DNA of 64,000 bases, taken from assembly GCA_022819985.1 (NCBI GenBank), contig JAJEGH010000044.1, positions 1 to 64,000 of the forward strand, written 5' to 3'. Position 1 is the stretch's first letter, and every line of letters begins with the position of its first letter. Shown here in pieces: positions 7,205-30,026 of the stretch. A model generated the notes under the pieces. It was not told the DNA's origin, ran no database searches, and was given only the letters and a program-made list of their open reading frames with translations. This DNA is from Alphaproteobacteria bacterium (GTDB lineage Bacteria > Pseudomonadota > Alphaproteobacteria > Bin65). Both the position numbers and the translations under genes were made by a program.

Positions 7205-7236
7205 TTGACTTGAGGAGCAAGGAACATTAAATGAAC
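7205..7236 (+). promoter_or_regulatory. Promoter-like TTGACT with overlapping LexA-type box GAAC-N7-GAAC (copy 1)
   Basis: TTGACT at 7205 is followed 17 bases later by TAAATG, and the two GAAC half-sites at 7222-7225 and 7233-7236 are exactly 7 bases apart. Alphaproteobacterial LexA recognises a GAAC/GTTC direct repeat with a 7-base spacer, and an SOS operator overlapping the -10 is a normal arrangement. Reading is rightward, toward and antisense to the 3' end of the SDR gene. No obvious gene lies downstream; the 18-codon ATG ORF at 7231 is not convincing. A matching copy lies at 29753-29783 on the other strand. Confidence 0.6.
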
Positions 7237-7303
7237 ATAAGATGTGAGAGCGGCTTGTCCGGTGGCGAAAGAAAACCTATCCGGTGACGAAAAAACGCTA
7301 TAT

Positions 7304-7317
7304 ACAGACCGGTCTGT
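7304..7317. promoter_or_regulatory. 14-bp perfect palindrome ACAGACCGGTCTGT (TetR-type operator candidate, copy 1)
   Basis: ACAGACCGGTCTGT is a perfect inverted repeat preceded by an A-run (AAAAAACGCTATAT). Perfect palindromes centred on ACCGGT are typical TetR-family operators. The same core AGACCGGTCT, preceded by AAAAAACGGTAGAT on the matching strand, recurs at 29649-29658. No TetR-family gene is present in the window, so the cognate regulator is unknown. Confidence 0.5.
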
Positions 7318-7423
7318 CCACTTTTGATCGAGCGGAAAATGGCGCAATTCCGGGGTTTGTGCGGAAAAGGAAAATGAACGATCGCTAAAGAATGGAGAAG
7401 TAGCAACCCGATTCGACGCTGCC

Positions 7424-8203
7424 CTAGAACTCGCCGCTGATCGTGGCGCCACCGTCGACGACCAGGGTGTGACCGGTCGTGAAATTGCCGGCCTTCGAGG
7501 CGAGGAAGACGGCGGCGCCGGCGATTTCCTCGACATGGCCGATGCGCCTGAGCGCATAGTGTTTGACGGCGGCGTTGTAGATTTCCTCGTTCTCCCACAG
7601 GGCGCGCGCCATGTCCGTCCTGACGATGGCCGGCGCGATGGCGTTGACCCGCACGTTGCGGTCGCCCCATTCGACGGAAAGGTTGCGCGCCAGGGCAGAA
7701 TCGGCGGCCTTGGTGATGCCGTAGATGCCGAGATAGCGGGTGCCTTTCAGCCCGCCGATGGAAGAGACGATGATGACTGCGCCGTCGCGCCGTTCGGCCA
7801 TCTGCGGAATGACCATCTGGCACAGCCAGATGTTGGACCGCAGGTTGGCCCCGGTGGTCTTCTCGTAGGCTTCGTCGGGCAGGTCCTGCAGCGTGCCGAA
7901 ATAGGGGTTGACCGCCGCGTTGCAGACCAGGATGTCGATGCGGCCGTAATGGGCGTTGGACCGGTCGACAAGGTCTTGCAACTGGTCCTTGTGGGAGATG
8001 TTGCAGGCGATGGCGACGGCGTCGCCGCCCTCGTCGCGGATGCCTTGCGCGACCTCCTCGCACTTGTCCAGCTTGCGGCTGGAGATCACCACCTTCGCGC
8101 CCTGCGCCGCCATCGCTTCGGCGGTCGCCCGGCCGATGCCCTTGGAGGAGCCGGTTATCAGGGCCACCTTGCCGTCGAGGCGGAACAGGTCGTCGTATTT
8201 CAT
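7424..8203 (-). CDS. SDR-family NAD(P)-dependent oxidoreductase
   Basis: A 259-residue classical short-chain dehydrogenase/reductase. The cofactor motif TGSSKGIG is at residues 17-24, followed by CNAAVNP, the catalytic Ser segment VSSIGG, the YxxxK pair in YGITK, and a C-terminal VDGG. The overall pattern resembles DHRS4-like or 3-oxoacyl-ACP reductase-like SDRs; the substrate is not predictable. I use the ATG that gives MKYDDLF rather than the upstream ATG, because the extra 28 residues look non-coding. It is divergent from the acyl-CoA dehydrogenase pair to its right and convergent with gltD. Confidence 0.88.
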   Translation of the reverse strand: MKYDDLFRLDGKVALITGSSKGIGRATAEAMAAQGAKVVISSRKLDKCEEVAQGIRDEGGDAVAIACNISHKDQLQDLVDRSNAHYGRIDILVCNAAVNPYFGTLQDLPDEAYEKTTGANLRSNIWLCQMVIPQMAERRDGAVIIVSSIGGLKGTRYLGIYGITKAADSALARNLSVEWGDRNVRVNAIAPAIVRTDMARALWENEEIYNAAVKHYALRRIGHVEEIAGAAVFLASKAGNFTTGHTLVVDGGATISGEF

Positions 8204-8387
8204 CGGAGATCGTCCGGCTGGAAATCGGAGAGGCGCGCCGGCATGAAGCGGCCCCGCGCCATCGTGGGCCGAAGGGTCAGGTTGCAACGGTCAGGGGCTT
8301 CCTATAATCCGATGCCCGACGAATCAACCGGCCGGATAAGGGTCGCACGGATGCCGGCCCGGCATTGCAATGCCCAGGGAGGGATGC

Positions 8388-9584
8388 ATGGACCTCGATA
8401 TCAGCGCCGAAGACCGGGCCTTCCGCGACGAGGTCAGGGCGTTCATCGACAAGAACCTGCCGTCCGATACCCGGGAAAAGGTGCGCCGCGGCCTGAAGCT
8501 CTCCAAGGAAGACCATGTCAACTGGCACAGGATCCTCCACGCCAACGGCTGGGGCGCGCCGGGCTGGCCGGTCGAATTCGGCGGGCCGGACTGGTCGCCG
8601 ATGCAGCGCCACATCTTCGAGGAGGAGACCGGCCGCAACCACTGCCCGCGCCTGATGCCGTTCGGGCTGAAGATGGTCGGCCCGGTCATCCAGGCCTTCG
8701 GCAGCGACGAGCAGAAGGCGCAGCATCTGCCGAAGATCGCGAGTTCGGAGATCCAGTGGTGCCAGGGCTATTCCGAGCCCGGCGCCGGGTCGGACCTCGC
8801 CTCGCTCAAGACCCGCGCGGTCCGCGACGGCGACACCTACATCGTTAACGGCCAGAAGACCTGGACGACGGCGGCCCACTGGGCGGACTGGATATTCTGC
8901 CTGGTGCGCACCGACGACACGGTGAAGAAGCAGGAGGGCATCTCCTTCCTGCTGATCGACATGACGACGCCGGGCATTACGGTGAAGCCGATCGTCACCA
9001 TGGAGGGCGGCCACGAGGTTAACGAGGTGTTCTTCGACGACGTCGTCGTGCCGGTCTCGAACCGGGTCGGCGCGGAGAACAAGGGCTGGACCATCGCCAA
9101 GTTCCTGCTCGGCCACGAACGGACCAGCATCGCCGAGATCGGCCGCTCCAAGGCGCAGCTCGAGAAGTTGAAGGAAATCGCCGCCGCCGAGCAGAAGAAC
9201 GGCGCTGCGCTGGCCGACGATCCGCGTTTCCGCGAGAAGATCGCGCGGGCCGAGATCGACCTGATGGCGCTGGAGATGACGCTGCTGCGCGTCGTCTCGG
9301 CGGAAAGCGCAGGCAGCGTGCCCGGCCCGGAAGCCTCCCTGCTGAAAATCCGCGCGACGGAGTTGCAGCAGGAACTGGGCGAACTGCTCATGGAGGCGAT
9401 CGGCTATTACAGCCATCCTGATACGCCCGAGGCCCGCGAGTTCGGCTGGAACGAGCCGTCGGTCGGGCCGGACTACGCCGCCAGCCTGTCGCCGGGCTAT
9501 TTCAACCTGCGCAAGACCTCGATCTACGGCGGCTCCAACGAGGTCCAGCGCGGCATCATCTCCAAGATGGTGCTGGGCTTCTGA
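8388..9584 (+). CDS. Acyl-CoA dehydrogenase, PimC-like (large subunit of a pair)
   Basis: A 398-residue FAD-dependent acyl-CoA dehydrogenase that introduces an alpha,beta double bond into an acyl-CoA. It shows the N-terminal helical domain, the FAD-binding segment GYSEPGAGSDLASLKTR, the middle beta domain (GQKTWTT) and the C-terminal IYGGSNEVQRGI. The usual Glu of YEGT is Gly here; a Glu in GHERTS on the preceding helix may act as base, as in isovaleryl-CoA dehydrogenase. The start has a strong GGAGGG site 4 bases upstream. The next gene is a second, divergent acyl-CoA dehydrogenase, so the two may form a heteromer like PimC/PimD or the steroid FadE pairs. Confidence 0.9.
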   Translation: MDLDISAEDRAFRDEVRAFIDKNLPSDTREKVRRGLKLSKEDHVNWHRILHANGWGAPGWPVEFGGPDWSPMQRHIFEEETGRNHCPRLMPFGLKMVGPVIQAFGSDEQKAQHLPKIASSEIQWCQGYSEPGAGSDLASLKTRAVRDGDTYIVNGQKTWTTAAHWADWIFCLVRTDDTVKKQEGISFLLIDMTTPGITVKPIVTMEGGHEVNEVFFDDVVVPVSNRVGAENKGWTIAKFLLGHERTSIAEIGRSKAQLEKLKEIAAAEQKNGAALADDPRFREKIARAEIDLMALEMTLLRVVSAESAGSVPGPEASLLKIRATELQQELGELLMEAIGYYSHPDTPEAREFGWNEPSVGPDYAASLSPGYFNLRKTSIYGGSNEVQRGIISKMVLGF

Positions 9585-9682
9585 TCGCCCCCGTGCGCGG
9601 CATTCCGTTCCGCCGCAGTCATCGCCTGCCGGGCCGGGCGTCAGCGCGGCCGCGCCACGCCAGCCATTGACGGTAACCTTCC

Positions 9683-10822
9683 ATGCCCTTCGCCCTGACC
9701 GACGAACAGAAGCTGCTCCAGGAAAGCGTCGACCGGTTCGTCGAGCGCGACTACGGCTTCGACATCCGCACCCGGCAGGCCGGGAGCGAAGCGGGCTGGA
9801 GCGCGGAGACTTGGGCACGGTTCGCCGAACTGGGCTGGCTGGGCGTGCCGTTCGCCGAGAGCGCGGGCGGCTACGGCGGCGGCCCGGTCGAGGCCGGGCT
9901 GATTGCGGAGGGACTCGGCAAGGGGCTGGCCGTCGAGCCCTATCTCTGGACCGTCGTGCTCGGCGGCGGCCTGCTGGCCCGGGCGGGGCGGACCGATCTG
10001 CTCGGAGACCTCATTGCCGGTAATCTGCAACTCGCAACCGGATTTGCCGAACCGCAGGCGCGCTATGCGCTCACCGACGTTGCGACGACCGCGGAGCGGA
10101 GCGGCGGCGATTTTCGGCTGTCCGGCCAAAAAGCCGTGGTCTTCAACGCCCCGTCGGCCGACCGGCTGATCGTGCCGGCGCGCACCGCGGGCGGGCAGAC
10201 CGAGCCGGGCGGCATTACCCTGTTCCTGCTGCCGGCCGACGCCGACGGCATCGCCCTGCGCGCCTACCGGACGATGGACGACGGCCGGGCCGCCGAAGTG
10301 ACGCTTGCAAAGGTCCGCGCCGGGGCCGATGAGGTCCTGGGCGACGTCGACAACGGTATGGCGCTGCTCGAACCGGCGATTGACGTTGCCACTTCGGTAC
10401 TGTGCTGCGAGGCTGCCGGCGTGATGGAGGCGCTGGTGAGCCAGACAAGGGAGTATATCGGGACGCGCAAGCAGTTCGGCGTGCCGCTGTCCAGGTTTCA
10501 GGTGTTGCAGCACCGCATGGCCGAGATGTTCATCCACAAGGAGCAGACCCAGTCCATGGCGTACATGGCGGTCGTGCGCGCGGCAGCGGGCGACGGGCCG
10601 GAGGCGTCCCGCGCGGCCTCGGCGGCCAAGGCCTACGCGGGCGAAAAGGGCAAGTCGGTCGGTCAGGAAGCGATCCAGATGCACGGCGGCATGGGCATGA
10701 CCCGTGAAATGCCGATCAGCGCCTATTTCAAGCGAATCACCATGATCGGCACCCTGTTCGGCGACGCCGACCACCACCTCGACCGCTTCGCCGACCTGGG
10801 TGCCGGCGCCGGGGCCGGCTGA
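9683..10822 (+). CDS. Acyl-CoA dehydrogenase, PimD-like (small subunit of a pair)
   Basis: A 379-residue acyl-CoA dehydrogenase family protein with the N-terminal helix domain (ALTDEQKLLQES), a degenerate middle domain (SGQKAVVFNAPSADRL) and a C-terminal domain with QMHGGMGMTREMPISAYF. The catalytic YEGTSE segment is replaced by MIGTLFGDAD, so no Glu is present there. This is what is seen in the non-catalytic partner of heteromeric acyl-CoA dehydrogenases. It lies 98 bases after the larger partner on the same strand and 13 bases before the VOC gene, suggesting one operon. Function as a dicarboxylyl-CoA or sterol side-chain dehydrogenase is inference. Confidence 0.87.
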   Translation: MPFALTDEQKLLQESVDRFVERDYGFDIRTRQAGSEAGWSAETWARFAELGWLGVPFAESAGGYGGGPVEAGLIAEGLGKGLAVEPYLWTVVLGGGLLARAGRTDLLGDLIAGNLQLATGFAEPQARYALTDVATTAERSGGDFRLSGQKAVVFNAPSADRLIVPARTAGGQTEPGGITLFLLPADADGIALRAYRTMDDGRAAEVTLAKVRAGADEVLGDVDNGMALLEPAIDVATSVLCCEAAGVMEALVSQTREYIGTRKQFGVPLSRFQVLQHRMAEMFIHKEQTQSMAYMAVVRAAAGDGPEASRAASAAKAYAGEKGKSVGQEAIQMHGGMGMTREMPISAYFKRITMIGTLFGDADHHLDRFADLGAGAGAG

Positions 10823-10835
10823 GGGAGGGCGCCGG

Positions 10836-11252
10836 ATGGCCGAAAATCCGATACCGATCAAGGGCCTGGATCACATCGTCCTGCGCGTGCGGGATATCGA
10901 TACGATGCTCCGCTATTACGGCGAGGTGCTCGGCTGCACGCTCGAGAAGGTCCAGGAGGATATCGGCCTCTGGCAGATGCGCGCCGGCGATGCGCTGATC
11001 GACTTCGCACCCGTCGACGGTCCCATCGGCACGCAGAAGGGCCCGGCGCCGGGCCGGGAGGGCCACAACCAGGACCATTTCTGCCTGCTGGTCGATCCAT
11101 GGGACGAGCAGGCTATCCGCGGTGCGCTGGAAGCGCGCGGCTGCGATGTGGAGGATTCCGCGATCCGCTACGGCGCGACCGGCTACGGCCCGTCGATCTA
11201 TCTCACCGACCCGGAGGGCAATACGGTCGAACTGAAAGGCCCTTCGACCTGA
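10836..11252 (+). CDS. VOC-family (glyoxalase/bleomycin-resistance-like) protein
   Basis: A 138-residue protein with the paired beta-alpha-beta-beta-beta modules of the vicinal-oxygen-chelate fold. Candidate metal ligands are His13 in GLDHIVLRV, the His of QDHFCLLV and the Glu in GNTVELKG, which fits a metal-dependent lyase or dioxygenase-like domain. Start chosen at MAENP, preceded by GGGAGGG; the longer track start overlaps the upstream gene. It probably belongs to the acyl-CoA dehydrogenase operon. The reaction is unknown. Confidence 0.85.
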   Translation: MAENPIPIKGLDHIVLRVRDIDTMLRYYGEVLGCTLEKVQEDIGLWQMRAGDALIDFAPVDGPIGTQKGPAPGREGHNQDHFCLLVDPWDEQAIRGALEARGCDVEDSAIRYGATGYGPSIYLTDPEGNTVELKGPST

Positions 11253-11264
11253 CCGTTCTGCGCC

Positions 11265-12176
11265 GTGGCTGAGCCTCCTCTCTCGGTCACGCCGAACCGG
11301 CGCCTGCAATCCGCCCTGTGGATGATACTCGCGGTCACGCTGTGGACCGGCGTGGCGATCTGCGTGCGCATGCTCGAGGGACGGGTGCCGATCTCCGACC
11401 TGTCCTTCTACCGCGGGTTGCTTTCGGTCGCCGTGATGATGCCGCTGATCCGGCGCGCCGGCCGGATGGGGCATGGCGGCCCCCTGCGCAAGGCCATGCC
11501 CTGGTTCGTCCTGCGCGGTGTGTTCATCTTCGCCGCCCAGACCTGCTTCTATTTCGCCCTGACCTGGATGCCGATGGCCGAAGCGACCGTGCTGAGCGGA
11601 ACGACTCCGATCTTCCTCGCCTTGATGGCAGGGATGTTTCTGGGCGAGAAGGTATCGGCGGTGCGCTGGGCCGCGATCGCCATGGGCTTCGCCGGCATCG
11701 TCTTGATCCTCAGGCCGGGGGCGGCGGTCATCCAGACCGCTGCGATAACCGCGCTGGCCTCGGCGGTGCTCTTCGCTAGCAGCTCGGCGATCAACAAGTA
11801 TCTTTCGCGCACCGAGCCGGCGAGCCGGATCGTCGGCTGGACCAACCTGATGATCGCCGCGGTCGCCGCGATCCCGTTCGTCTACAATTCGTACGTCCCG
11901 CAATGGAGCGACCTGCCCTGGATCGCGGCAATCACCGTCCTCGGCACCGGGGCGCAATACGGCTTGGCACGCGCCATCGCCGCAGCCGACGCCAGTTTTT
12001 CCGGACCGTTCGACTTCCTGCGCATGCCCTTCTCGGCAATTGCCGCGTTGATCCTGTTCGCCGAGTGGCCGGATATCTGGGTCTGGGTCGGCACCGGCAT
12101 CGTCTTTGCCAGCATCTTCGGCCTCACCCGCGACCGCGCCCTGTTCCGCCACCGCACGGGGGCGTCGTCGGGGTAG
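11265..12176 (+). CDS. EamA-family (DMT superfamily) transporter
   Basis: A 303-residue inner-membrane protein with about ten predicted hydrophobic segments arranged as two EamA repeats. The first repeat covers roughly residues 15-150 (ALTWMPMAEATVLSGTTPIF) and the second 160-290 (YGLARAIAAADASFSGPFDF). Such DMT carriers usually export metabolites such as amino acids or S-adenosylmethionine; the substrate cannot be read here. It begins at a GTG 12 bases after the VOC stop, with no strong Shine-Dalgarno, consistent with coupling to the upstream genes. Confidence 0.88.
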   Translation: MAEPPLSVTPNRRLQSALWMILAVTLWTGVAICVRMLEGRVPISDLSFYRGLLSVAVMMPLIRRAGRMGHGGPLRKAMPWFVLRGVFIFAAQTCFYFALTWMPMAEATVLSGTTPIFLALMAGMFLGEKVSAVRWAAIAMGFAGIVLILRPGAAVIQTAAITALASAVLFASSSAINKYLSRTEPASRIVGWTNLMIAAVAAIPFVYNSYVPQWSDLPWIAAITVLGTGAQYGLARAIAAADASFSGPFDFLRMPFSAIAALILFAEWPDIWVWVGTGIVFASIFGLTRDRALFRHRTGASSG

Positions 12177-12291
12177 GCCGTATACGGACGATGCGATCCG
12201 TATCCTTTGGAACTGCCTCTGTATTCCGGCTATCGGATCGGAAAGAGACCGGGCTGTCCGCCGAAGGGGCGGAACGGAAGCCAACTCGCCG

Positions 12292-12867
12292 TCATTCGAT
12301 ATTCTCGGCCGAATATCTCAGGCTCAGGGTCTCGCCGCGCACCGGGTCTTCCAGTTCCACTTCGAATCCGTCGGCTTTGCCGTGCGGTCGCCCTGCCTGG
12401 CGTGCGGCGAACAGGATGACGCGTTCGGGCGGCAGGTCGCTGAGCGCGGCAAATCCGGCGACGCGGCCCGCGGGTTCTTCCGTTGCCGGCCTGCGCTCGT
12501 CCCCGGTCAGATGCCAGCTGCGCAATTTCAGCCGGTTGAGATGGGGCGCGACATCCGCGAGCCGCCAGGCCTGCCGGCTGAGCGGTTTGGCGCAGGCCAG
12601 AAGCGCCGGCGCATAGAAACTTGCCGAATGCAAAGAGGCGACGGTGAGCAGCGGCCCGTCGCCGGCGGCGACCAGGGCGATGGCTGCGATGCCATGCTGG
12701 CTACCGCCCGGCTGCTGGATCGCAGAGGCCGTGGTCAGCCGGTCGACCGGAAGCGCGACGACCTTGCCCTGACCGTAGGACACCCAGGCCAGTTCGATGA
12801 CCAGATCCGGCGTGTAGACCTTGCCGCCGGACCTCACATGCGGCCGGTAAAGGAATTGGCTCGACAC
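12292..12867 (-). CDS. Hypothetical protein
   Basis: I do not recognise the family. The 191-residue frame starts at a GTG 17 bases after the RidA stop on the same strand. Its composition is protein-like, with hydrophobic strands (YTPDLVIELAWVSYG, HGIAAIALVAAGDGPLLTVA) followed by a charged half and the tail ETLSLRYSAENIE. No signal peptide or membrane segment is obvious. The longer track ORF runs back through RidA in another frame and is not believable there. An out-of-frame ORF on the plus strand covers the same DNA and looks like a shadow. Confidence 0.5.
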   Translation of the reverse strand: MSSQFLYRPHVRSGGKVYTPDLVIELAWVSYGQGKVVALPVDRLTTASAIQQPGGSQHGIAAIALVAAGDGPLLTVASLHSASFYAPALLACAKPLSRQAWRLADVAPHLNRLKLRSWHLTGDERRPATEEPAGRVAGFAALSDLPPERVILFAARQAGRPHGKADGFEVELEDPVRGETLSLRYSAENIE

Positions 12868-12883
12868 CGGACCGGCCCAGGCC

Positions 12884-13252
12884 TCAGCCGTCCGGGTCCG
12901 GGCGGGCGGCGACCGCCAGCAGCTCGATCTTGTTGTTGCCGGCGAAGGTGACCTGCACGCAGGAGCGCATCGGCCAGTGCTGCGGTTCGTCGCCGATCCA
13001 GTCGGCCCACCAGCGGTCGAATTCGCCCTTGCGCCCGATATCGTAAAGGTAGACCTGCACATTGATGAGGCGGGTCCTGTCGGTGCCCGCGGCGGCGAGG
13101 CCCCGGTCGAGCGCGTCGAAGGCGCGCTTCGCCTGTTCCTCGAAATCGAGCGAGAAATCGTCGGACATGCCGAGCGCCCAGACGAAGTCCTTGTAGGCCG
13201 AGCCCCAGCTCCGGGTCGGCACGTTGCCCGGAATGCGCAGGATATCGCTCAT
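12884..13252 (-). CDS. RidA/YjgF/YER057c/UK114-family protein
   Basis: A 122-residue protein of the RidA superfamily, whose members hydrolyse reactive enamine/imine intermediates or act as deaminases within catabolic operons. The signature is visible in the C-terminal half: LINVQVYLYDIGRKGEFDRWW, the Arg of MRSCVQV and the GNNKIELLAVAA end. The N-terminus carries a family-like SWGSAYKDFVWALGM strand-helix. It lies 28 bases downstream of the cysteine hydrolase gene on the same strand. Pairing of RidA with an amidase fits a pathway releasing ammonia from an N-containing intermediate. Confidence 0.85.
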   Translation of the reverse strand: MSDILRIPGNVPTRSWGSAYKDFVWALGMSDDFSLDFEEQAKRAFDALDRGLAAAGTDRTRLINVQVYLYDIGRKGEFDRWWADWIGDEPQHWPMRSCVQVTFAGNNKIELLAVAARPDPDG

Positions 13253-13280
13253 GCCGTCGCCTCCTTTGTGCCGGCGCCGC

Positions 13281-13982
13281 CTATTCCGCCGCCTGCGCCG
13301 CGGCGGGCGCCTGCAGCAGGTTGTCGATCGCGTCGTCGGTCGTGCGCACGTCGCCGAAGCTCTGCCAAAAGCTGGTCAGCCCGGCGAGATGGTCCTCGTC
13401 GAAGCGGGCCGCGTTGCCGTCGAGCACCATGACCGCGCGGTAGCCGATCATCATGGCATCGCGCGCGCTCGATTCGCAGCACATGTTGGTCGCCGTGCCG
13501 CAGACCAGCAGGTTTTCGATACCGCGGGCCCGGAGTTGTTCGTCCAGGTCCGACGCGCCCTGGATGAAGGCGCTGAACCGGTTCTTGCGGCTGACGATGT
13601 CGCCGTCCTTCACGACCAGGTCGGGATAGAGCGCGTGGCCCTCGCTGCCCTCGGTCAGGCCGTTCTTGTGGGCGTGCATCTTGGCCTCGGTGAAGAAATA
13701 GTCGTGATAGATCGGCCACTGGCTCTCACTGCCCATCTCCTCCGCCACGGTCAGCAGCACCCAGGCGACGACCCCGCCGCGGTCCCGGACGACGTCGGCC
13801 AGGCGGTTGATGTTGGGCACGATGCTGATCGCGGTCTCGACTTCCGCGACGAAGAAATTCTGCATGTCGATGACGACCAGCGCCGTGCGCGCCGGGTCGA
13901 AGCTGTCGAACACCTCCAGCTTGCCGCGCTTGGCCATGATGCGGTCGATGACGTATTGCGGCATTTCCAGGTTGTGCGGCAT
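13281..13982 (-). CDS. Isochorismatase-family cysteine hydrolase
   Basis: A 233-residue cytoplasmic hydrolase of the isochorismatase fold, the group that includes maleamate amidase, ureidoacrylate amidohydrolase and N-carbamoylsarcosine amidase. The catalytic triad can be seen: Asp in ALVVIDMQNFF, Lys in IVSRKNRFSAF and the nucleophile Cys in GTATNMCCESSARDA, with the family's cis-peptide GTATN. It is followed closely by ridA and preceded by the BNR-repeat gene, all on the minus strand. An amidase acting on a C-N bond is likely; the substrate is inference. Confidence 0.88.
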   Translation of the reverse strand: MPHNLEMPQYVIDRIMAKRGKLEVFDSFDPARTALVVIDMQNFFVAEVETAISIVPNINRLADVVRDRGGVVAWVLLTVAEEMGSESQWPIYHDYFFTEAKMHAHKNGLTEGSEGHALYPDLVVKDGDIVSRKNRFSAFIQGASDLDEQLRARGIENLLVCGTATNMCCESSARDAMMIGYRAVMVLDGNAARFDEDHLAGLTSFWQSFGDVRTTDDAIDNLLQAPAAAQAAE

Positions 13983-14024
13983 GGCTTTCCTCCCCTTGCT
14001 CCCGTCTCTGGGGTGCGTTCGAAT

Positions 14025-15008
14025 TCAGGCCGCCGGCTGCCAGGCGATCATGCGCAGCTCGCCCAGTTCCCGGCGCAATTTGAGCCAGCTCTCGCCGCCG
14101 TCGGTCGAGCGGAAGACCTGGCCGAAGATGGTGCAGAAAAAGATCAGGTCCGGGTCTGCCGGATTGGTCGCGACCCACCAGATGGTCGTGTTGGGCGGCT
14201 CGGGCAGATCGACGATTTCCCAGGTCTCGCCCCTGTCGCGGCTGCGGAACAGCATGCCCTGCTCGCCCGACGGCTTGTCGCCGACCGAGAGAAACATGAC
14301 GCCGGAATCGTCGGGGCGCTTCGCGATGCAGCGGAAATAGGGCCAGGGGGCGTCCGGCACCTCGATCCACTGCCAGCTCCGACCCTCGTCGCGGCTGCGG
14401 TGCAGGCCCTCTTCGGTGGAGCACAGGATGGTCCGGCCGTCTCCGTCATCGTCGTCGAAGAAAACCAGATTGTGGGTGTCCGGGCTCTTCAGCCCGTCGA
14501 TGCATTTCTCCCAGGTCTCGCCGCCGTCGCGGCTGACGAAGATGCCGTCGATCTCGATGGTCACCCAGATCGTCTCGCGGTCGCGCGGATCGAAATGGAT
14601 CGAGGTGACCCGCGGCGTGTTGATGAATTCGCATTCCACGCCGTTGCCGACATCGCAGCGCCGCCACGTCCGGCCGCCGTCCGCCGAGCGATAGAGCTGT
14701 GCCGGGCGCGTGCCGGCGAAGATAACATCGGGATCGTGGGGCGACTGGCCGATCTGGAGAATGTGCAGCTCGTCCATCGGCGACGGCAGATGCTCCCAGC
14801 GGTCTCCTTCCACGGTCCAGCGGTAGACGCCGATATCGGTGCCCGCCAGCACGTCGCCCGGCCGCGCCGGATGGGTCGCGACGCACCAGGCGCGGGATTC
14901 GTTGTAGATGCCGCCGGTCGGCGTGAAGGCGCGGTTCCACCTCTCGCCAAGGTCGTGGCTGAACCAGACCGAATGGCCGACCGACGCGGCATAGACGGTG
15001 ACGTTCAT
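14025..15008 (-). CDS. BNR/sialidase-type beta-propeller repeat protein
   Basis: A 327-residue protein made of about six Asp-box (BNR) repeats: SHDLGERW, SADGGRTW, SRDGGETW, SRDEGRSW, SRDRGETW and STDGGESW, spaced 45-60 residues apart. This indicates a six- or seven-bladed beta-propeller like sialidases and VPS10-type proteins. No signal peptide is apparent, so it is probably cytoplasmic, which is odd for a glycosidase. It sits upstream of the cysteine hydrolase and ridA genes on the same strand. Enzymatic function is not supported; it may bind a ligand or scaffold proteins. Confidence 0.8.
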   Translation of the reverse strand: MNVTVYAASVGHSVWFSHDLGERWNRAFTPTGGIYNESRAWCVATHPARPGDVLAGTDIGVYRWTVEGDRWEHLPSPMDELHILQIGQSPHDPDVIFAGTRPAQLYRSADGGRTWRRCDVGNGVECEFINTPRVTSIHFDPRDRETIWVTIEIDGIFVSRDGGETWEKCIDGLKSPDTHNLVFFDDDDGDGRTILCSTEEGLHRSRDEGRSWQWIEVPDAPWPYFRCIAKRPDDSGVMFLSVGDKPSGEQGMLFRSRDRGETWEIVDLPEPPNTTIWWVATNPADPDLIFFCTIFGQVFRSTDGGESWLKLRRELGELRMIAWQPAA

Positions 15009-16248: not shown

Positions 16249-16321
16249 GATCGGCTTCGATACCGGAAACCAGAGCGGTTGAAGCGGTCAGGGAAACACT
16301 CGAACGCCAGCTCGATCCGCG

Positions 16322-17371: not shown

Positions 17372-17577
17372 GGGCCAGTCCTTGCGTCCGGTCGGCAGGC
17401 GTCCTTGTCGTCGCCGGGCCGACGCTCAAGATCGGGGCGGTCTCACCGCCGTGTCGGCTTTCCCCGGCAGCGCGCAGCCTCGGGCGTAACCGCCCGCCGT
17501 GCTCACGTCCAGACGGGCCTGCATGTCCTCGGCCCTGGCCCTGCCTTCCCGCATCTGCCGCTGCACCTGCCGCCCCC

Positions 17578-20240: not shown

Positions 20241-20358
20241 TGTCCTCTCCCTGTCGCTGGCCTCGGCGTGTTGGAACCGGCCGGCCGCGGGCGCGAGACT
20301 ACTGCCTGACGGCGCGCCGAGAAAGCCGGTCGGGTCCCTCGGTTGGCGACTGTCGCCC

Positions 20359-22005: not shown

Positions 22006-23896
22006 TCGACGGGCCGGCCCGTAGGGCAGGCGAGCGGGCATCGAGCAGGAGGGTGAGCGCTACGGCGGCGCCGGCCGGCGCCAGCGACAAGGCCGAATCG
22101 GGACCGGTCCAGACAGTCGCGCTGCCGCTTGCCAGCGCAAGGGCGAACAGCAGCCCGGCATGAAGCCGGCCGGCGATGCCGCGCCCGGCGACGACCGCCA
22201 TGCGGCCGAGGATGTAGCCGGCCGCCAGACAGGTCGCCAGCGCATAGCCGATGGCGAGCCAGCCTCCGTCGAGCAGAATGGCCGGGTTGAAGGCCCACAG
22301 GAAGGGCAACAGATAGGCGGCGACGGCGAGTTGAACGCCGCTGAATCCGGTGCGCCACATGTCGCTGCCGGCGATCTCGGCGGCCACCATGCTGGCGACG
22401 GCAACCGGCGGCGTCAGCATGCTCAACAGCCCGAAATAGAACAGGAAGAGATGCGCCGCCATGGGCGTCAGGCCCATCTCGATCAGCGCCGGCGCAATGA
22501 CGGAAACCAGCACGATATAGACCGCCGCGGTCGGCATCCCCATGCCGAGGACGATGCAGATTACAGCGGTGAGCAGCAGCATCGTCAGCAGACCGGAGGA
22601 CTGGCCGATCGCCGTCAGGATGAGCGAAAGCTGGAAGGCCAGGCCGGTGCTGTTCATAACGCCGATAATGATGCCGGCGCCGCCGGCGATCAGCAGCAGC
22701 GGCATCAGGTTCAGTCCGCCGCCGACGAACAGTTCCCGGATCTCGGCGGCGGTCACCGTCTGCCGTTGCAGCGCGCGTTTCAGCAGCAGCAGGAGCAGGA
22801 CGGCCGCTGCTGCGTACAGCGCGGACAGTCCCGGATTGTAGCCGAGGCCGAACAGGAAATAGATCAGGATGGCCAGCGGGATGGCGAACACCCAGCCGCC
22901 CGCCAGCGTCGCCAGCACCTTCGGCAGGGCCTCGCGCGGCGCACCGCGGATGCCGTAGCGCACCGCCAGGCCGTCGACCTGCAGAAAAAGCACCACGAAA
23001 TAGAGGATGGCCGGAACCAGCGCGGCGGCCACCACATCCTCGTAGGGCACTTCGAGAAACTCGGCGATGATGAAGGCCGTCGCTCCCATGACCGGCGGCG
23101 CGATCTGCCCGCCGTTCGACGCCACCGCCTCGATCGCGCCGGCATGCCGGGGCCGGAAGCCGGACTTCTTCATCATCGGGATGGTGACGATGCCGGTCGA
23201 CATGATGTTGCCGACCGTCGAGCCGGAGATCGTGCCAAAGGCGCTCGACGCAACCACCGCGACCTTGGCCGGCCCGCCGCGCCGGTGACCCATCCAGCTC
23301 ATGGCGAGATCGTTGAAGAAGGCGGTTGCGCCGCTGATCTGGAGCAGCTTGCCGAACACGATGAAGGCCAGCACCAGTTCGGTGACGACGCGCAGCACAA
23401 TGCCGGGCACGCCGTTATTGTCGGCATAAAGGTAGAGGATCGTCTTGGTCGGCGGGAAAACCTCCGCCTCCAGCGTGCCGGGCAGCAGGTTGCCGAAATA
23501 GGCGTAGGCAATGAGCAGCCAGACCAGGCCGGCGATAACCCTGCCGGCGGCCTTGCGCAGGCCCTCCAGTGCGAGCGCGATCGCAACAATCCCCGGCCCC
23601 CACATGTCAGGGGTCCGATCCGCCATACTGACGATCCAGAGCTCGAAATTGACTGCCATCCACGACCATGCCGCGATGGCGGCAAGCGCCAGGACGACAT
23701 CGAAGGCTACGGCCCGACGGAAGTAGGGGTAGTTCAGCAGGGCTGCGGCCGTGGCGCAGCCGAGCACCACCGCCACGACCTGCTGGGATACCAGCGCAAG
23801 GCCGAAATAGTTCGGGATCGACAGGATCCAGGCAACACCGAGAATCGGCAGCAGCGCAAGGCAGGCATGCAAAAACGATCGGCGCACGCGGTCCAC
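21989..23896 (-). CDS. TRAP transporter fused permease (DctQ-DctM fusion, TAXI type)
   Basis: A 635-residue integral membrane protein with roughly 16 hydrophobic segments. The N-terminal third corresponds to the small DctQ-like part and the remainder to the DctM-like permease, with GTISGSTVGNIMSTGIVTIP and GMGMPTAAVYIVL repeats typical of the family. It takes up an organic acid with Na+ or H+, delivered by the adjacent TAXI receptor. It lies 35 bases downstream of the receptor gene and overlaps the FAD monooxygenase start, indicating that the imported compound is probably the substrate of the downstream enzymes. Confidence 0.93.
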   Translation of the reverse strand: MDRVRRSFLHACLALLPILGVAWILSIPNYFGLALVSQQVVAVVLGCATAAALLNYPYFRRAVAFDVVLALAAIAAWSWMAVNFELWIVSMADRTPDMWGPGIVAIALALEGLRKAAGRVIAGLVWLLIAYAYFGNLLPGTLEAEVFPPTKTILYLYADNNGVPGIVLRVVTELVLAFIVFGKLLQISGATAFFNDLAMSWMGHRRGGPAKVAVVASSAFGTISGSTVGNIMSTGIVTIPMMKKSGFRPRHAGAIEAVASNGGQIAPPVMGATAFIIAEFLEVPYEDVVAAALVPAILYFVVLFLQVDGLAVRYGIRGAPREALPKVLATLAGGWVFAIPLAILIYFLFGLGYNPGLSALYAAAAVLLLLLLKRALQRQTVTAAEIRELFVGGGLNLMPLLLIAGGAGIIIGVMNSTGLAFQLSLILTAIGQSSGLLTMLLLTAVICIVLGMGMPTAAVYIVLVSVIAPALIEMGLTPMAAHLFLFYFGLLSMLTPPVAVASMVAAEIAGSDMWRTGFSGVQLAVAAYLLPFLWAFNPAILLDGGWLAIGYALATCLAAGYILGRMAVVAGRGIAGRLHAGLLFALALASGSATVWTGPDSALSLAPAGAAVALTLLLDARSPALRAGPSNDRTA

Positions 23897-23931
23897 GCCG
23901 ATCGCTCCTGCCGTATTTGCGTCGGGCGCGC

Positions 23932-24948
23932 CTATTTCAGGCTGGCCTCATGCTTGTCGTTGGCGGCGGTCCAGAGGCCCGCTTCCTTGTAGTATTTGAC
24001 CGCGCCGGGATGGTACGGCATCGCATTGGTGGCCGGGGCCAGGGCCGAGGGCTTGACGCCGCGCAACGGCGGATAGGCCTTCTGCAAGGCCTGCCAGTTC
24101 TGATGGATGGTCTTTGCCAGCCTGTAGGCGTCGGTATCGGAAACCGAAGTGCCGGCGTTGATATAAGTGTCGAACGCCGCCACTTTCGTTTCGCCGACGA
24201 CGAACGGTCGCCGCTTGTGCGGCCTGGCGACCAGAGTTCGCGAGCCTGCGATGCCCGCGTTCATTTTCGCGTCGGTCGCCATCTTGCCGAGGGCGACGAT
24301 GCGCAGGCCGCCGGGCACCGTTGCATGGGCCTTTCGCATCGCCGGCATAAGCAGGGCGACCGGGGCGGCGTCGGCCCGTCCCTCGATCACCATGTTGATG
24401 CCTTTGACGACGCCGCCCGAATCGACGGCCTTGACGTCGGTTTCCTTGAGGCCGGCGGTTTCCAGAATGGTCCGGTTGAGCCTGGCCAGGGAGACATTCG
24501 TCTTGACCTTCACGACGACGCGTTTGCCCTTCAGGTCCTCGACCGATTCGATCCCGGTGTTGGCCTTGACCATGTAGGCGTACGGCAGAACCCAGATCCG
24601 GGCGATGACGCGCACCTTCTTGACCGCCTTCCGGTAGGGCGCCTGACCGTTGAAGGCGAGGCCCGAATCGAGGCTGGAGTTCAGCCCGAGCGTGATTTCG
24701 CCGGCTTCCATCAGGGGCAGATACACGGAAGAGCCCGCGTGCGGCTGGGCCGTCGAGCGGATGCCGAGCTTCTCCTGGAACAGTTTGGCGAATCCGCTGC
24801 CCAGCAGGAAATAGGTCGATCCGGAAGGGTTGGTCCCGATTGTCAGGCGCTTCAATTGAGCGTCGGCAGGGTGGCCGCCGAACAGCAGAAGACCAACTGC
24901 CGCCGCTCCCGCTATCGCAGAGGTCCTGAAAGCCGGTTGCCTGAACAT
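23932..24948 (-). CDS. TAXI-family TRAP transporter solute receptor
   Basis: A 338-residue periplasmic binding protein. It has a signal peptide (FRTSAIAGAAAVGLLLFGGHPADAQ) followed by LTIGTNPSGSTYFLLGSGFA, the TAXI signature at the ligand site. Later come EAGEITLGLNSSLDSG and a conserved proline-rich end. It delivers its ligand to the fused permease encoded immediately downstream. The agmatinase-family gene lies about 110 bases upstream. The ligand is unknown; TAXI receptors often bind glutamate or related dicarboxylates. Confidence 0.92.
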   Translation of the reverse strand: MFRQPAFRTSAIAGAAAVGLLLFGGHPADAQLKRLTIGTNPSGSTYFLLGSGFAKLFQEKLGIRSTAQPHAGSSVYLPLMEAGEITLGLNSSLDSGLAFNGQAPYRKAVKKVRVIARIWVLPYAYMVKANTGIESVEDLKGKRVVVKVKTNVSLARLNRTILETAGLKETDVKAVDSGGVVKGINMVIEGRADAAPVALLMPAMRKAHATVPGGLRIVALGKMATDAKMNAGIAGSRTLVARPHKRRPFVVGETKVAAFDTYINAGTSVSDTDAYRLAKTIHQNWQALQKAYPPLRGVKPSALAPATNAMPYHPGAVKYYKEAGLWTAANDKHEASLK

Positions 24949-25058
24949 TACACATCCTCCCTATGGTCGTTCGCCGGACCCTTTTCGCGAGACTTGGCGG
25001 CGCGGTCAACCGCCGTTGCAGGGTTTCGCCCGACACGGGCCGGCCGGGCCGCCGGCCT

Positions 25059-26075
25059 CTACTGCCCGACGCCGCGCAGGACCGGCCAGCCGTCGTCCGG
25101 TATCGCGCCGGCCTTGATTTTTGCGGCGTGGAAGAGGTAGCCGAGTAAATTCACCAGGATCTGGGTGCAGAACAGACTTGTGGCGCCGCCGGGATCGTAT
25201 TCCGGCGCCAGTTCGACGAAATCGATGCCGACGACCGTCCCGCGCATCGCCGCCGCCTTGAGAAAATCGCAGGTCTCGTAATAGAGGAAACCGCCGGGGC
25301 TGGGCGTGCCCGTGCCCGGCACCAGCGATGGGTCGAAGCCGTCCACGTCGATGGTGAAGTAGAGCCGGGCGTTCTCGGGTATCCGCTCGACGACCCTGGC
25401 GATGCCAAGCTCCCGGAAATCCCGGACCGACAGGATGTCCGAGTTCGCAGCGCGGGCGTCGGCGAAGTCGGATCGTGCGCTGGAGCCAAGGTTGCGGATG
25501 CCGAGATGGGTGATGCCCGTGACGTGGCCGCATTCGGCGGCCCGGCGCAGCGGATTGCCCTGGCCGTGGCGCACGCCGAAGCGCTCGTCGACATAATCGA
25601 GATGGGCGTCGATATGGACGATATGGACCGGCGGTTCGGTATCGAAAGCGCGGATGCAGGGGATATGCACCGAATGGTCTCCGCCCAGAACGACCGGCAG
25701 CGCGCCCGCCGCCAGGATCTTGCGCACGCCGTATTCGATATTGTCGAGGCATTGCAGGGCGTCGATATGCACCATGTCGGCGTCGCCGATATCGACGATG
25801 CGGGCTTCGTCGCCGGCGAGGTGGACGATGTCGTCCTCCGGATCGTACGCACCGTCGCCGATGGCGAAGAGCTGCGACGCGTCCCGGAATCCCTTCGGCC
25901 CGAAGCGCGCGCCGGGGCGGACCTGGGTGCCGAGATCGAACGGCGCGCCCATGATGGCGACATCGGCATCGATGGCGTCCCAGTCCGGCCGGTACGGCTT
26001 TTTCATGAAGGTCTGGATGCCGACGAAGGGCAGGTCGAGCCGGGCGGGCTTCACGGTATCGGATCGCTCGGTCAT
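25059..26075 (-). CDS. Agmatinase/ureohydrolase-family protein
   Basis: A 338-residue Mn-dependent ureohydrolase. The binuclear metal ligands are visible in GGDHSV, IDAHLD and IDVDGFDPS. The N-terminal PFDLGTQVRPGARFGPKGFR motif is also typical. The family hydrolyses guanidino compounds (agmatine, arginine, guanidinobutyrate, guanidine) to urea plus an amine. It is longer than a minimal agmatinase by a short N-terminal extension. It stands at the head of the TAXI-TRAP genes, so the transported compound could be a guanidino acid, though that is inference. Confidence 0.9.
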   Translation of the reverse strand: MTERSDTVKPARLDLPFVGIQTFMKKPYRPDWDAIDADVAIMGAPFDLGTQVRPGARFGPKGFRDASQLFAIGDGAYDPEDDIVHLAGDEARIVDIGDADMVHIDALQCLDNIEYGVRKILAAGALPVVLGGDHSVHIPCIRAFDTEPPVHIVHIDAHLDYVDERFGVRHGQGNPLRRAAECGHVTGITHLGIRNLGSSARSDFADARAANSDILSVRDFRELGIARVVERIPENARLYFTIDVDGFDPSLVPGTGTPSPGGFLYYETCDFLKAAAMRGTVVGIDFVELAPEYDPGGATSLFCTQILVNLLGYLFHAAKIKAGAIPDDGWPVLRGVGQ

Positions 26076-26108
26076 GGGCAGGGCTCCGAGGCCGTTCGGC
26101 AGGCCCTT

Positions 26109-26225
26109 CGATACGCCCCGGCCTTGCGGCCGGGGCTACTCAGGATGAGGAAGAGGGAGGGGTGTTCAGGCACTTGAACCCCCAACAACTCCCTCATCCC
26201 GAGTAGGCGCGTCAGCGCCGTATCG
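26109..26225. repeat. Palindromic intergenic repeat, copy B
   Basis: The element starts CGATACGCCCCGG and ends CGCCGTATCG. It has inner arms CTACTCAGGATGAGG and CCTCATCCCGAGTAG around a variable loop (CCCCCAACAACT). It is the same family as copy A but inverted, and nearly identical at both ends to copy C. It lies between the stop of the gamma-resorcylate decarboxylase paralogue and the agmatinase start on the minus strand, where the stem-loops could attenuate read-through. Confidence 0.88.
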
Positions 26226-26236
26226 AGGGACGCACA

Positions 26237-27223
26237 TTATTGTTCCAGATCGAGGTCGAACAGGCGGATTGCGTTGGTCCGGCCGATCTTGAGGCGGTCG
26301 CTGTCGGCGACGGTCGGTGTCGCGTCGTACCATTTCGCGGCGTCCTCCATGCGCTCGAAGGGATAGTCGGCGGAGAAATAGACCCTGTCAGTGCCCATCA
26401 CCTCGACGGTGCATTTGAAGGCGGGATCGTTGAAGAAGCCGCTCGTCGTGATGTGGAAATGCTCGACGAAATACTCGCCGAGCGGTCGCTTGCCGCGATA
26501 ACCGCGGGGCGAAAACCGCATCCGCGCGTCGAGCCGCCACAGGGCGAAGGGGATGTTCTCGCCGAGATGGCCGACGGCGATCCGCAGGTTGGGATAGTCG
26601 TCGAACAGGCCGGAGCCGCACAGGCGCAGCGCGTGGATCGAGGTCTCGACCGCGAAGCCCCAGGGCGCACTCATCAGCCAGGCATGGCCTTCGTAGTTGC
26701 GCGCCTGGGCCGGGATCTGCATCCGCGGATGGAGATAGAACGGCACGTCGAGTTCCGAGACGGTGGCCCAGAAACTGCGGTACTCGGGAATGTCGTAATA
26801 GATGGCGCTGTCCGGCTCGTCCTTCTGGGTGAAGCCGTTGACCATCGCGCCCTTGAAGCCGAGCTCGCGCACGCAGCGGGTGAGTTCCGCCGACGCCGCG
26901 TCGGGATCCTGCATCGGCAGCGCCGCCAGGCCGGCATAGCGCTGTGGATAGCGGGCCGCCGCCTCGGCGATCTTGTCGTTGGCCTTGCGGGAGACGGCGA
27001 TCGCCTCGCCGGTATCGAGGATGCCCTGGACGGCCGGCGCGTTGAGCGACAGGAGCGCGAAGTCGACGCCGCAGCGTTCCATTGCCTCGATGCGCCGTTC
27101 GCTCACGTCCAGCAGCTCCCGGGTGAATTCGTCCCAGCGCCCGGATTCGCCGGCGAAATGCCGGGAGCCGCCCAGGGTCTCCTCGATCGCCATATGCTCT
27201 TCGAACGCGATCTTGCCTTGCAT
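26237..27223 (-). CDS. Amidohydrolase 2 family, gamma-resorcylate-decarboxylase paralogue 1
   Basis: A 328-residue metal-dependent decarboxylase-type TIM barrel of the ACMSD/gamma-resorcylate decarboxylase group. Putative metal and catalytic residues are present: Glu8 and His10 in FEEHMAIEE, His in PFYLHPR, His in VGHLGEN and Asp in FSADYPFE. It resembles the divergently encoded paralogue but is more diverged at the active site (SADYPFER versus STDWPFEN) and in the N-terminal 40 residues. Its substrate may therefore differ from 2,6-dihydroxybenzoate. It heads the minus-strand catabolic block. Confidence 0.87.
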   Translation of the reverse strand: MQGKIAFEEHMAIEETLGGSRHFAGESGRWDEFTRELLDVSERRIEAMERCGVDFALLSLNAPAVQGILDTGEAIAVSRKANDKIAEAAARYPQRYAGLAALPMQDPDAASAELTRCVRELGFKGAMVNGFTQKDEPDSAIYYDIPEYRSFWATVSELDVPFYLHPRMQIPAQARNYEGHAWLMSAPWGFAVETSIHALRLCGSGLFDDYPNLRIAVGHLGENIPFALWRLDARMRFSPRGYRGKRPLGEYFVEHFHITTSGFFNDPAFKCTVEVMGTDRVYFSADYPFERMEDAAKWYDATPTVADSDRLKIGRTNAIRLFDLDLEQ

Positions 27224-27255
27224 CGATATCTCCCTCCGGATGCCGTCCGCGTGCG

Positions 27256-27364
27256 GGAATGCGGCCCGTGCCGCGGCTTCGCCTATCCGTTTATCCCAGA
27301 TGGGCCGGGCCGTCGAACGGCCATCTGCTGCGTCGGGGCAAAGAAAAGCATGGAATGCGGCCCG
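27256..27364. promoter_or_regulatory. 13-bp direct repeats in the divergent decarboxylase promoter region
   Basis: GGAATGCGGCCCG occurs at 27256-27268 and again at 27352-27364, in the same orientation, within the 185-base divergent intergenic region. One copy is 33 bases from the minus-strand start and the other 45 bases from the plus-strand start. They may be binding sites for a regulator controlling both paralogues. An imperfect inverted pair (GATGGGCCG and CGGCCATC) lies between them. Confidence 0.35.
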
Positions 27365-27408
27365 GCTGCCCTTACGATGCGGCGGTCAGGGGAGCGCCGG
27401 AGGGAAAG

Positions 27409-28398
27409 ATGGACGGCAAGATCGGCCTGGAGGAGCATTTTGCCATAGCGGACACATTGCAGGATTCGGCGGGGTTCCTGCCGCCGGAAACCTGGCAGGA
27501 ACTGTCGGGCCGGCTGGTCGATCCGGAGGAGCGGCGATTGCGCGAGATGGACGCGAACGGCATGGAAACGATGATCCTGTCGCTCAACGCGCCGGCGGTC
27601 CAGGCGATCCCGGACGTCGCGCGGGCGGCCGACGTCGCGCGCCGGGCCAACGACGATCTGGCGGAGAAGGTCGCCCGCCGGCCGGACCGCTTCCGCGGAC
27701 TTGCCGCCCTGCCGCTGCAGGACCCGGATCTCGCGTCGGCGGAACTGACCCGCTGCATCCGGGAACTCGGCTTCGTCGGCGCGCTGGCCAACGGGTTCTC
27801 CGAGATCGAGGGCAGCGACGCGCCGCTCTACTACGACCTGCCGCAATACCGGGCCTTCTGGGCGGTTTGCGCCGAACTCGGCGTGCCCTTCTACCTGCAC
27901 CCGCGCAACCCGCTGCCGCAGGACGCCCGCATCTACGGCGGCCATCCCTGGCTCATGGGGCCGGGCTGGGCGTTCGGCCAGGAAACCGCCGTTCATGCCC
28001 TCCGGCTCATGGGCTCCGGCCTCTTCGACGACCATCCCGATTTGCAGATCATCGTCGGCCATATGGGCGAGGGCCTGCCCTTCAACATCTGGCGGGTCGA
28101 CAACAAGAACGCCCGGACGAAGAAACCGGGAAGCAGCGGCCCGCAGCCGGCGCAGAAGAGCTTTACCGAATATTTCCGCGAGAATTTCCATATCACCGTG
28201 TCGGGCAACTACTGCACCGAGGCGTTGCTCTGCTCGATGCAGGTCATCGGCGCGGACCGGATCCTGTTCTCGACCGACTGGCCGTTCGAGAATGTCGACT
28301 ATTCCGCCGCCTGGATGGACAGCGTCGACATCGACGAAGCCGACCGCCTGAAGATCGGCCGCACGAACGCGCTCAGGCTGTTCGGTCTTGGCGGCTAG
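27409..28398 (+). CDS. Gamma-resorcylate decarboxylase (2,6-dihydroxybenzoate decarboxylase)-like amidohydrolase
   Basis: A 329-residue protein very similar in pattern to characterised gamma-resorcylate decarboxylases: N-terminus KIGLEEHFAIADTLQDSAGF, then METMILSLNAPAVQAIPD, VPFYLHPRNPLPQDARIYGG, VGHMGEGLPF and FSTDWPFEN. These contain the metal-ligand Glu8, His10 and barrel His and Asp residues. It would decarboxylate a dihydroxybenzoate to resorcinol without an organic cofactor. The start is chosen at an ATG just downstream of GGAGGGAAAG; the 50-residue upstream extension in the track is not protein-like. An acyl-CoA dehydrogenase gene follows after 12 bases. Confidence 0.9.
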   Translation: MDGKIGLEEHFAIADTLQDSAGFLPPETWQELSGRLVDPEERRLREMDANGMETMILSLNAPAVQAIPDVARAADVARRANDDLAEKVARRPDRFRGLAALPLQDPDLASAELTRCIRELGFVGALANGFSEIEGSDAPLYYDLPQYRAFWAVCAELGVPFYLHPRNPLPQDARIYGGHPWLMGPGWAFGQETAVHALRLMGSGLFDDHPDLQIIVGHMGEGLPFNIWRVDNKNARTKKPGSSGPQPAQKSFTEYFRENFHITVSGNYCTEALLCSMQVIGADRILFSTDWPFENVDYSAAWMDSVDIDEADRLKIGRTNALRLFGLGG

Positions 28399-28410
28399 CG
28401 CTGCGGCGCC

Positions 28411-29553
28411 ATGCAGCTCAGCGAGACCCAGCGGCAGATCCGGGAATCGGCCCGCGCCTTCGCCGCGCGGGCGATTGCGCCCCATGCGGCGGAATGGGAC
28501 CGTCAGGAGGGCGCGCCGCGGTCCGTGCTGCGCGAGATGGCCGAAGTCGGCCTGATGGGCGTCATCATCGATCCGGCCTGGGGCGGCGCCGGCGCCGATT
28601 TCGTGTCCTACGCGCTCGCGCTGGAAGAGATTTCGGCGGCCGACGGCGGCATGTCCAACATGATGGCGGCGAACAACTCGCCGGTTGCGGCGGCGATCCA
28701 GGAACACGGCACCGAGCGCCAGAAGGCCGAATACCTGACCAAGCTCACCTCCGGCGAATGGATCGGCTGCATCCATCTGACCGAGCCCCACACCGGCTCC
28801 GACGCCGCGGCGATCCGCAGCCGTGCCGAGAAGGTCGACGGCGGCTGGCGGCTCAACGGCCACAAGGCCTTCGTCACCGGCGGCGCCACGGCGGAGCTGG
28901 CGATGATCGTCGCGGTCACCGACCCGGCGGCCGGCAAGCGCGGCATCTCCGTCTTCGTCACGCCGACGGACAATCCCGGCTACCGGGTGATCGCGGAAGA
29001 GCGCAAGCTCGGCCACCGCACCAACGATACGGCGCAGGTCGTCTTCGAGGACATGGCCGTGCCGGACGCCGACCTGCTCGGCGCGGAGGGCCGCGGCCTC
29101 GGCATCGCGCTCGCCAACCTCTCCGCCGGCCGGATCGGCGTCGCAGCCCAGGCGGTCGGCGGCGCCCGCGCGGCGCTCAAGGCGGCCCGCGACTATGCGA
29201 AGAAGCGCGAGGCGTTCGGCCGGCCGATCGCCGAACACCAGGCCATCGCCTTCAAGCTGGCGGACATGGCGACGCAGATCGAGGCGGCGCGCCAGCTCTA
29301 CCTCCACGCCGCTGCGCTCCGGGATGCGGGGCGTGCGTGCGCGGCCGAGGCCTCGATGGCCAAGCTCTTCGCCTCGGAGATGGCGGAGCGGGTCGCCTCG
29401 GAGGCGATCCAGATCCACGGCGGCGCCGGGTTCCTCAACGATTTCCCGGTCGAGAAAATCTATCGCGACGTCCGGGTCTACCGGATCTACGAGGGCACCT
29501 CCGAGATCCAGAAGATCATGATTTCCCGCCATCTCGATTCGCTGGACCTGTAA
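28411..29553 (+). CDS. Acyl-CoA dehydrogenase (short/branched-chain type)
   Basis: A 380-residue acyl-CoA dehydrogenase with all standard motifs: ALEEISAADGG, LTEPHTGSDAAAIRS for FAD, LNGHKAFVTGG, IQIHGGAGFLNDFPVEKIYRD and the catalytic Glu in IYEGTSEIQ. The canonical Glu makes it a normal homotetrameric enzyme, unlike the pair at 8.4-10.8 kb. It is preceded by the decarboxylase gene at 12 bases, so the two are probably co-transcribed. Chain-length preference cannot be stated. Confidence 0.93.
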   Translation: MQLSETQRQIRESARAFAARAIAPHAAEWDRQEGAPRSVLREMAEVGLMGVIIDPAWGGAGADFVSYALALEEISAADGGMSNMMAANNSPVAAAIQEHGTERQKAEYLTKLTSGEWIGCIHLTEPHTGSDAAAIRSRAEKVDGGWRLNGHKAFVTGGATAELAMIVAVTDPAAGKRGISVFVTPTDNPGYRVIAEERKLGHRTNDTAQVVFEDMAVPDADLLGAEGRGLGIALANLSAGRIGVAAQAVGGARAALKAARDYAKKREAFGRPIAEHQAIAFKLADMATQIEAARQLYLHAAALRDAGRACAAEASMAKLFASEMAERVASEAIQIHGGAGFLNDFPVEKIYRDVRVYRIYEGTSEIQKIMISRHLDSLDL

Positions 29554-29648
29554 CGCGCGGCCGGATCGAAGAAACGGACATTATTCCTGTATTTTTGGCT
29601 TTTCGTTCAAATTTGTTCCCTTGTTTTTCAAGGCGTTACGAATCAGAC

Positions 29649-29658
29649 AGACCGGTCT
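29649..29658. promoter_or_regulatory. AGACCGGTCT palindrome (TetR-type operator candidate, copy 2)
   Basis: The core AGACCGGTCT is identical to that at 7306-7315. The extended sequence GACAGACCGGTCTATC is a 16-bp palindrome with one mismatch. On the minus strand it is preceded by AAAAAAACGGTAGAT, closely matching the flank of copy 1. It lies about 95 bases past the acyl-CoA dehydrogenase stop. Confidence 0.5.
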
Positions 29659-29752
29659 ATCTACCGTTTTTTTGCCGGGCGGGGGGCGCCGCGGCCCGGC
29701 GGAACGGATGTTACGGAACGGCCGCCCGGCGGGCCGGTGCGGGACGATTTAT

Positions 29753-29783
29753 GTTCATATAATGTTCCATTGCGGGAAGTCAA
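29753..29783 (-). promoter_or_regulatory. LexA-type box GTTC-N7-GTTC with TTGACT promoter-like hexamer (copy 2)
   Basis: GTTC at 29753-29756 and 29764-29767 are separated by exactly 7 bases; on the minus strand this is GAACATTATATGAAC. TTGACT lies at 29778-29783 (minus), 16 bases before TATATG. The arrangement TTGACT, LexA-type box, AT-rich tract, AGACCGGTCT is the same as copy 1, but inverted. Transcription would run leftward, antisense to the end of the acyl-CoA dehydrogenase gene. Confidence 0.6.
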
Positions 29784-30011: not shown

Positions 30012-30026
30012 ATGGGGGTGGGAATG

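Follow-up and report, generated by a model that had tools for sequence, protein, structure and literature searches.

Two composite sites in the window

The stretch of DNA that we analysed (the window, 64,000 nucleotides) carries two inverted copies, A and B, of a composite element on either side of a 22-kb catabolic block, raising the question of whether the two sites are the paired boundaries of that block or belong to something larger. Both sites have the same block order: TTGACT, GAAC-N7-GAAC, a variable leader, an A-run and AGACCGGTCTGTC. In copy A, on the plus strand, the -35-like TTGACT (7205..7210) is followed by the LexA-type operator GAACATTAAATGAAC (7222..7236), which overlaps the -10 TAAATG (7228-7233; spacer 17), by a leader (7237..7289) conserved neither in copy B nor in an ortholog of copy A, and by the A-run (7290-7295) and palindrome TACAGACCGGTCTGTC (7303-7318) that form the invariant core of the family described below (7290..7318). 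The tail of copy A (7319..7395) contains GGAAAA tracts and a second operator-like motif TGAACGATCGCTAAA (7375-7389), and is conserved in the ortholog. Copy B, on the minus strand, consists of the -35-like TTGACT (29778..29783), the LexA-type operator GAACATTATATGAAC (29753..29767) overlapping the -10 TATATG (29761-29756; spacer 16), a variable GC-rich leader (29674..29752), the A-run (29673-29667) and palindrome GATAGACCGGTCTGTC (29661-29646), which together span 29646..29673, and a tail with A-tracts and the weak second motif TTGAACGAAAAGCCAAAAA (29591..29645).

The original prediction held that similarity is concentrated in the blocks, and this was borne out by identities of 76% in the promoter and LexA box and 77% in the A-run and palindrome, against 31% in the leader and 37% and 20% in the tail. 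The variable stretch had been put at 60-90 bases; the 79-nt leader of copy B agrees with this, but that of copy A, at about 52 nt, is near the range and below it. GAAC-N7-GAAC by itself occurs three times in the 64 kb compared to 1.6 expected, which is not significant. A strict promoter scan returned no site at copy A or copy B, because TATATG and TAAATG are without the final T that the scan requires.

A genome-wide repeat family

Recurrence of the composite had been set beforehand as a check on the prediction. GAAC-N7-GAAC...AGACCGGTCT was found in eight copies in the 4.04-Mb genome compared to none for a reversed-pattern control, and in five of six congeners. The palindrome GACNGACCGGTCTGTC at up to two mismatches gave 72 genome matches compared to five in the control, and the A-run plus palindrome gave no control match. 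We collected and aligned 58 palindrome sites genome-wide; they form one family in which heads and tails are exchangeable. The feature is thus real but was misread in scale, as copies A and B are two members of a genome-wide family. Four of the 23 gaps between adjacent palindromes on the same contig are no longer than the 22 kb separating A from B. The pairing of A and B is therefore nothing special, since they are two of 58 sites and such spacings are common, and the proposal that they form paired boundaries of the block is not supported.

The units fall into two promoter classes. About 37 of the 58 copies have a main-class promoter, located 140-700 bp upstream of the palindrome, in which a UP-like AAAATATTTCCTTTTTTCGATAATA precedes TTGACA-N17-TATATG and the conserved start CAACGCCCGAAGTGCG. 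A strict pattern count of promoters upstream of palindromes gave 37 of the main class and nine of the LexA class, while GAAC-N7-GAAC occurs within 300 bp upstream in 12 of the 58 copies (controls 0-2). The LexA-class promoters, to which copies A and B both belong, nearly always read TTGAC-N11/12-GAACATTATATGAAC. Most main-class copies share a 110-bp tail with GGAAAA tracts phased at 10 bp, closed by the palindrome-like GGAACG-NN-CGATCAAAA; the second palindrome-like site of the family reads TTGA-N-CG-NN-CG-N-TCAA. Homology between units extends over as much as 660 bp, and the best pair, located at two different loci, is 93% identical over 525 bp; the closest relative of copy B is 83% identical to it over 259 bp (L090). 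Several palindromes are found less than 550 bp from a contig end (C3:293, C18:353, C41:538 and C46:478), as expected if repeats break the assembly.

LexA-type promoters

GAAC-N7-GAAC also stands upstream of both lexA and recA of this genome, matching the published alphaproteobacterial LexA operator (PMC3091678) and upholding the reading of this box in the original prediction. Among LexA-class promoters beside a palindrome, in this genome and its relatives, all 23 copies had both half-sites exact and none had a single mismatch, and main-class promoters have an identical -10 but no box; we consider from this contrast that GAAC-N7-GAAC is probably under selection as an operator. Because the -10 lies within it, the N7 hardly varies and reads ATTATAT or ATTAAAT in almost every case. 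As the same box precedes lexA and recA, LexA control of the LexA-class units is plausible, and the predicted damage-responsive promoter has support at the level of sequence only.

The 17 strongest LexA-type promoters in the genome all lie within repeat units: ten are accompanied by a palindrome, two by a mutated palindrome (L277 and L280) and five by a CATGACA direct-repeat module. As in the known alphaproteobacterial SOS promoters with GAACN7GAAC boxes, the operator overlaps a TTGAC promoter; in contrast to them, these 17 have no directly attached gene and drive repeat modules (PMC3091678). In the five without a palindrome (L265, C5:77032; L268, C8:21596; L270, C13:895; L276, C31:58945; L279, C49:125139) the module that follows is CATGACATTTCATGACACATC, with roughly 10-bp direct repeats. 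This module is also found after some palindrome units.

Genomic context

We analysed the surroundings of the 58 sites with gene calls seeded with verified genes, yielding 109 neighbour genes. All 58 sites are intergenic and none lies inside a gene. Seventeen are in convergent spacers, 31 in tandem and six in divergent spacers, and the remainder are at contig ends; 16 of the tandem sites point with the genes and 15 against them. No Pfam family occurred in more than three of the 109 neighbours, and there was no enriched family or catabolic function among them; nor did any transposase family stand out. The intergenic placement and the lack of an enriched neighbour family argue that the units are not promoters of adjacent genes, and their scarcity in divergent spacers suggests that insertions which would disturb gene starts are selected against. 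We recognised no conserved small open reading frame between promoter and palindrome, and the open reading frames in copy A fail to match those of the ortholog over their length.

The site most clearly placed as a gene promoter is at L289 (C2:1-19000), where an exact palindrome at 10986 lies 19 bp upstream of an amidase gene in a prophage remnant. The remnant encodes capsid-, tail- and amidase/LysM-like proteins, assigned by eye.

Distribution and turnover among relatives

The family is restricted to one genus. The composite is present in one to five copies in the five positive congeners and in none of 54 genomes outside the genus; the A-run plus palindrome is absent from about 380 alphaproteobacterial genomes outside the genus and also from one congener, and copy number differs widely between species. 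The relatives whose acyl-CoA dehydrogenase is 94% identical are metagenome-assembled genomes labelled Rhodospirillaceae, one of them from Spongia, and the genus carrying the family is related to sponge-symbiont bacteria.

Among 40 sites sampled from the relatives, 13 were syntenic with a site of this genome. In another species, the ortholog of copy A occupies the same place and retains 85% identity in the promoter and LexA box and 90% in the A-run and palindrome, compared to 37% in the leader. This block-by-block conservation agrees with the earlier view that these are selected sites and not the product of a recent duplication, and the retention and partial conservation of copy A at an orthologous site suggest a function under selection in addition to any selfish spread. 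The copy B locus is occupied by a palindrome unit of another version in one relative and by a main-class promoter unit in the opposite direction in two others. At L190, where this genome has a main-class unit, a relative has one of the LexA class. At L204 (3300-4300), nucleotide synteny places the element where three congeners (L282, L283 and L285) have an intact 1.2-kb carboxylate-amine-ligase-like gene, a name that we gave by eye from the sequence. The subfamilies that have been amplified differ between species, and one relative has amplified a subfamily of its own with a different tail. One genome (G002) has a species-specific amplified subfamily, GCATGTAAGAAAGACCGGTCTGTCTAATTCAAAAATCAAGCGATTTCAAAGACTTGGC, at L229, L232, L238, L241, L242, L246 and L248.

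The conserved product of the units

We considered the possibility that these promoters produce a family of sibling small RNAs, some of them SOS-induced, acting in trans or antisense to neighbouring gene ends. Strong promoters without an open reading frame, the preference for convergent over divergent spacers (17 versus six) and the conserved CAACGCCCGAAGTGCG leader with which main-class transcripts begin would all fit such a family. However, the 36 aligned tails (the tail module only) showed no covariation, with none of nine pairs changed on both sides; the leader varies in length and sequence even among orthologs; and orientation in tandem contexts is 50:50. A terminator search at both window copies found no terminator-like site; a terminator-like GC hairpin was seen, by eye only, after some main-class tails. 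No Rfam element match exceeded the gathering score, the sole match being a tRNA gene (RF00005) at 358-431 on the plus strand of the window. With a variable leader, a tail free of covariation and window copies without a terminator, it is unlikely that the RNA itself is what has been conserved; the discrete small RNA of the original prediction is doubtful, and we regard the small-RNA family as unlikely.

The palindrome as an intrinsic terminator was rejected, since its left half varies without compensation and the window copies have no terminator-like site. Known plasmid or phage origins were also rejected after giving no DNA match (one query per source, with different copies). The palindrome had further been read as a TetR operator whose binding protein is not encoded nearby. 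The second part proved right, as none of the genome's 13 TetR genes lies near a palindrome; the same result led us to reject TetR autoregulation and leaves the TetR label, drawn from palindrome resemblance and nothing more, doubtful.

Alternatively, the sites might be chromosome-organising or protein-binding sites, comparable to REP/BIME or SlmA-type sets, with the DNA module as the function and the promoters incidental. Conservation is of the DNA-site type (an invariant palindrome, A-tracts phased at 10 bp and a second palindrome-like site) and the sites are spread genome-wide. We nevertheless think this improbable, as most copies have a strong, class-specific promoter at their upstream end and copy number varies widely between species, down to zero in one congener. 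Phage-related control or decoy sites, in which the palindrome would be a phage regulator's operator that chromosomal copies titrate or respond to, can be pointed to at the lysis-type amidase/LysM gene on contig C2, but this is one case in 58, the element search of phage records was negative and no repressor gene was found, making this explanation very improbable indeed.

A mobile-like, promoter-carrying repeat family

About 58 scattered copies in this genome, of a type confined to one genus, argue for a mobile-like repeat family and not for paired borders of one island. Many gene-less, dispersed, intergenic copies and presence/absence differences between close relatives, the latter seen in the synteny of the sampled sites and at L204, are features of miniature inverted-repeat transposable elements (MITEs), and the turnover and replacement of units between species is mobile-like repeat behaviour. 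Sites A and B are thus, in our favoured and reasonably probable reading, members of a genus-restricted, dispersed, modular, gene-less intergenic repeat family that is MITE-like and promoter-carrying, with an SOS-type subclass. No terminal inverted repeats or target duplication were recognised in aligned young pairs, whose unit ends are not sharply defined, no clean empty site was found, and no autonomous partner or transposase was identified among the nearest neighbours, so transposition itself is what we infer.

According to this MITE-like model, the head of each unit would be a strong sigma-70-type promoter, either UP-element/TTGACA-N17-TATATG (about 37 of the 58 copies) or one with its -10 inside a LexA-type operator (12 or more copies, including both in the window). 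Transcription would cross the variable leader and then enter a conserved DNA module comprising the A-run, AGACCGGTCTGTC, helically phased A-tracts and TTGA-N-CG-NN-CG-N-TCAA. A dimeric protein may bind the palindrome, LexA would repress the SOS-type promoters so that the LexA class fires after DNA damage, and the units may spread as non-autonomous elements through a factor supplied in trans. We tentatively suggest, as a possibility of rather low probability, that the family is a mobile gene-less regulatory cassette, amplified per species, that joins a constitutive or LexA-controlled promoter to a fixed two-palindrome module, part of the symbionts' SOS response then being a scattered, fast-evolving non-coding regulon. 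A family confined to one genus, with constitutive and SOS-type versions that are interchangeable and a shared operator-like palindrome at 58 intergenic positions, would show how regulatory DNA can itself become a spreading, mobile unit. The sites listed here are defined positions at which to map transcripts and with which to find the palindrome-binding protein.

Promoter-carrying dispersed repeats are already known in a few bacteria, and our literature search found nothing relevant on a LexA-controlled MITE or a sponge-symbiont repeat. The Correia repeat enclosed elements of Neisseria occur in more than 100 dispersed gene-less copies that may carry promoters or protein-binding sites and whose positions differ between strains (PMC2649163). 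They resemble the present family as gene-less dispersed repeats with promoters, but their defining features are inverted repeats and a short core, whereas no inverted-repeat ends were found in the units here, which extend to about 700 bp and include one subclass with a LexA-type operator. BOX elements are modular in build. They are small interspersed repeats present in many copies in Streptococcus pneumoniae (PMC3049150); the likeness lies in the copy number and the mosaic, modular organization, the modules here being promoters and operator-like palindromes, and we claim no sequence relation. REP/BIME elements are abundant extragenic palindromes arranged in mosaics, with shown protein-binding sites and with RAYT transposases (PMC2817692); here, in contrast, the palindrome forms part of a long unit that has strong promoters, and no RAYT partner was identified.

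We also observed a second abundant intergenic inverted repeat, GTCATTTCGACCGGAGC...GCGGAGAAATCCGG, at about 29850-30150 of the window. It recurs in many element leaders, as an insertion lying between the promoter and the palindrome of the unit.
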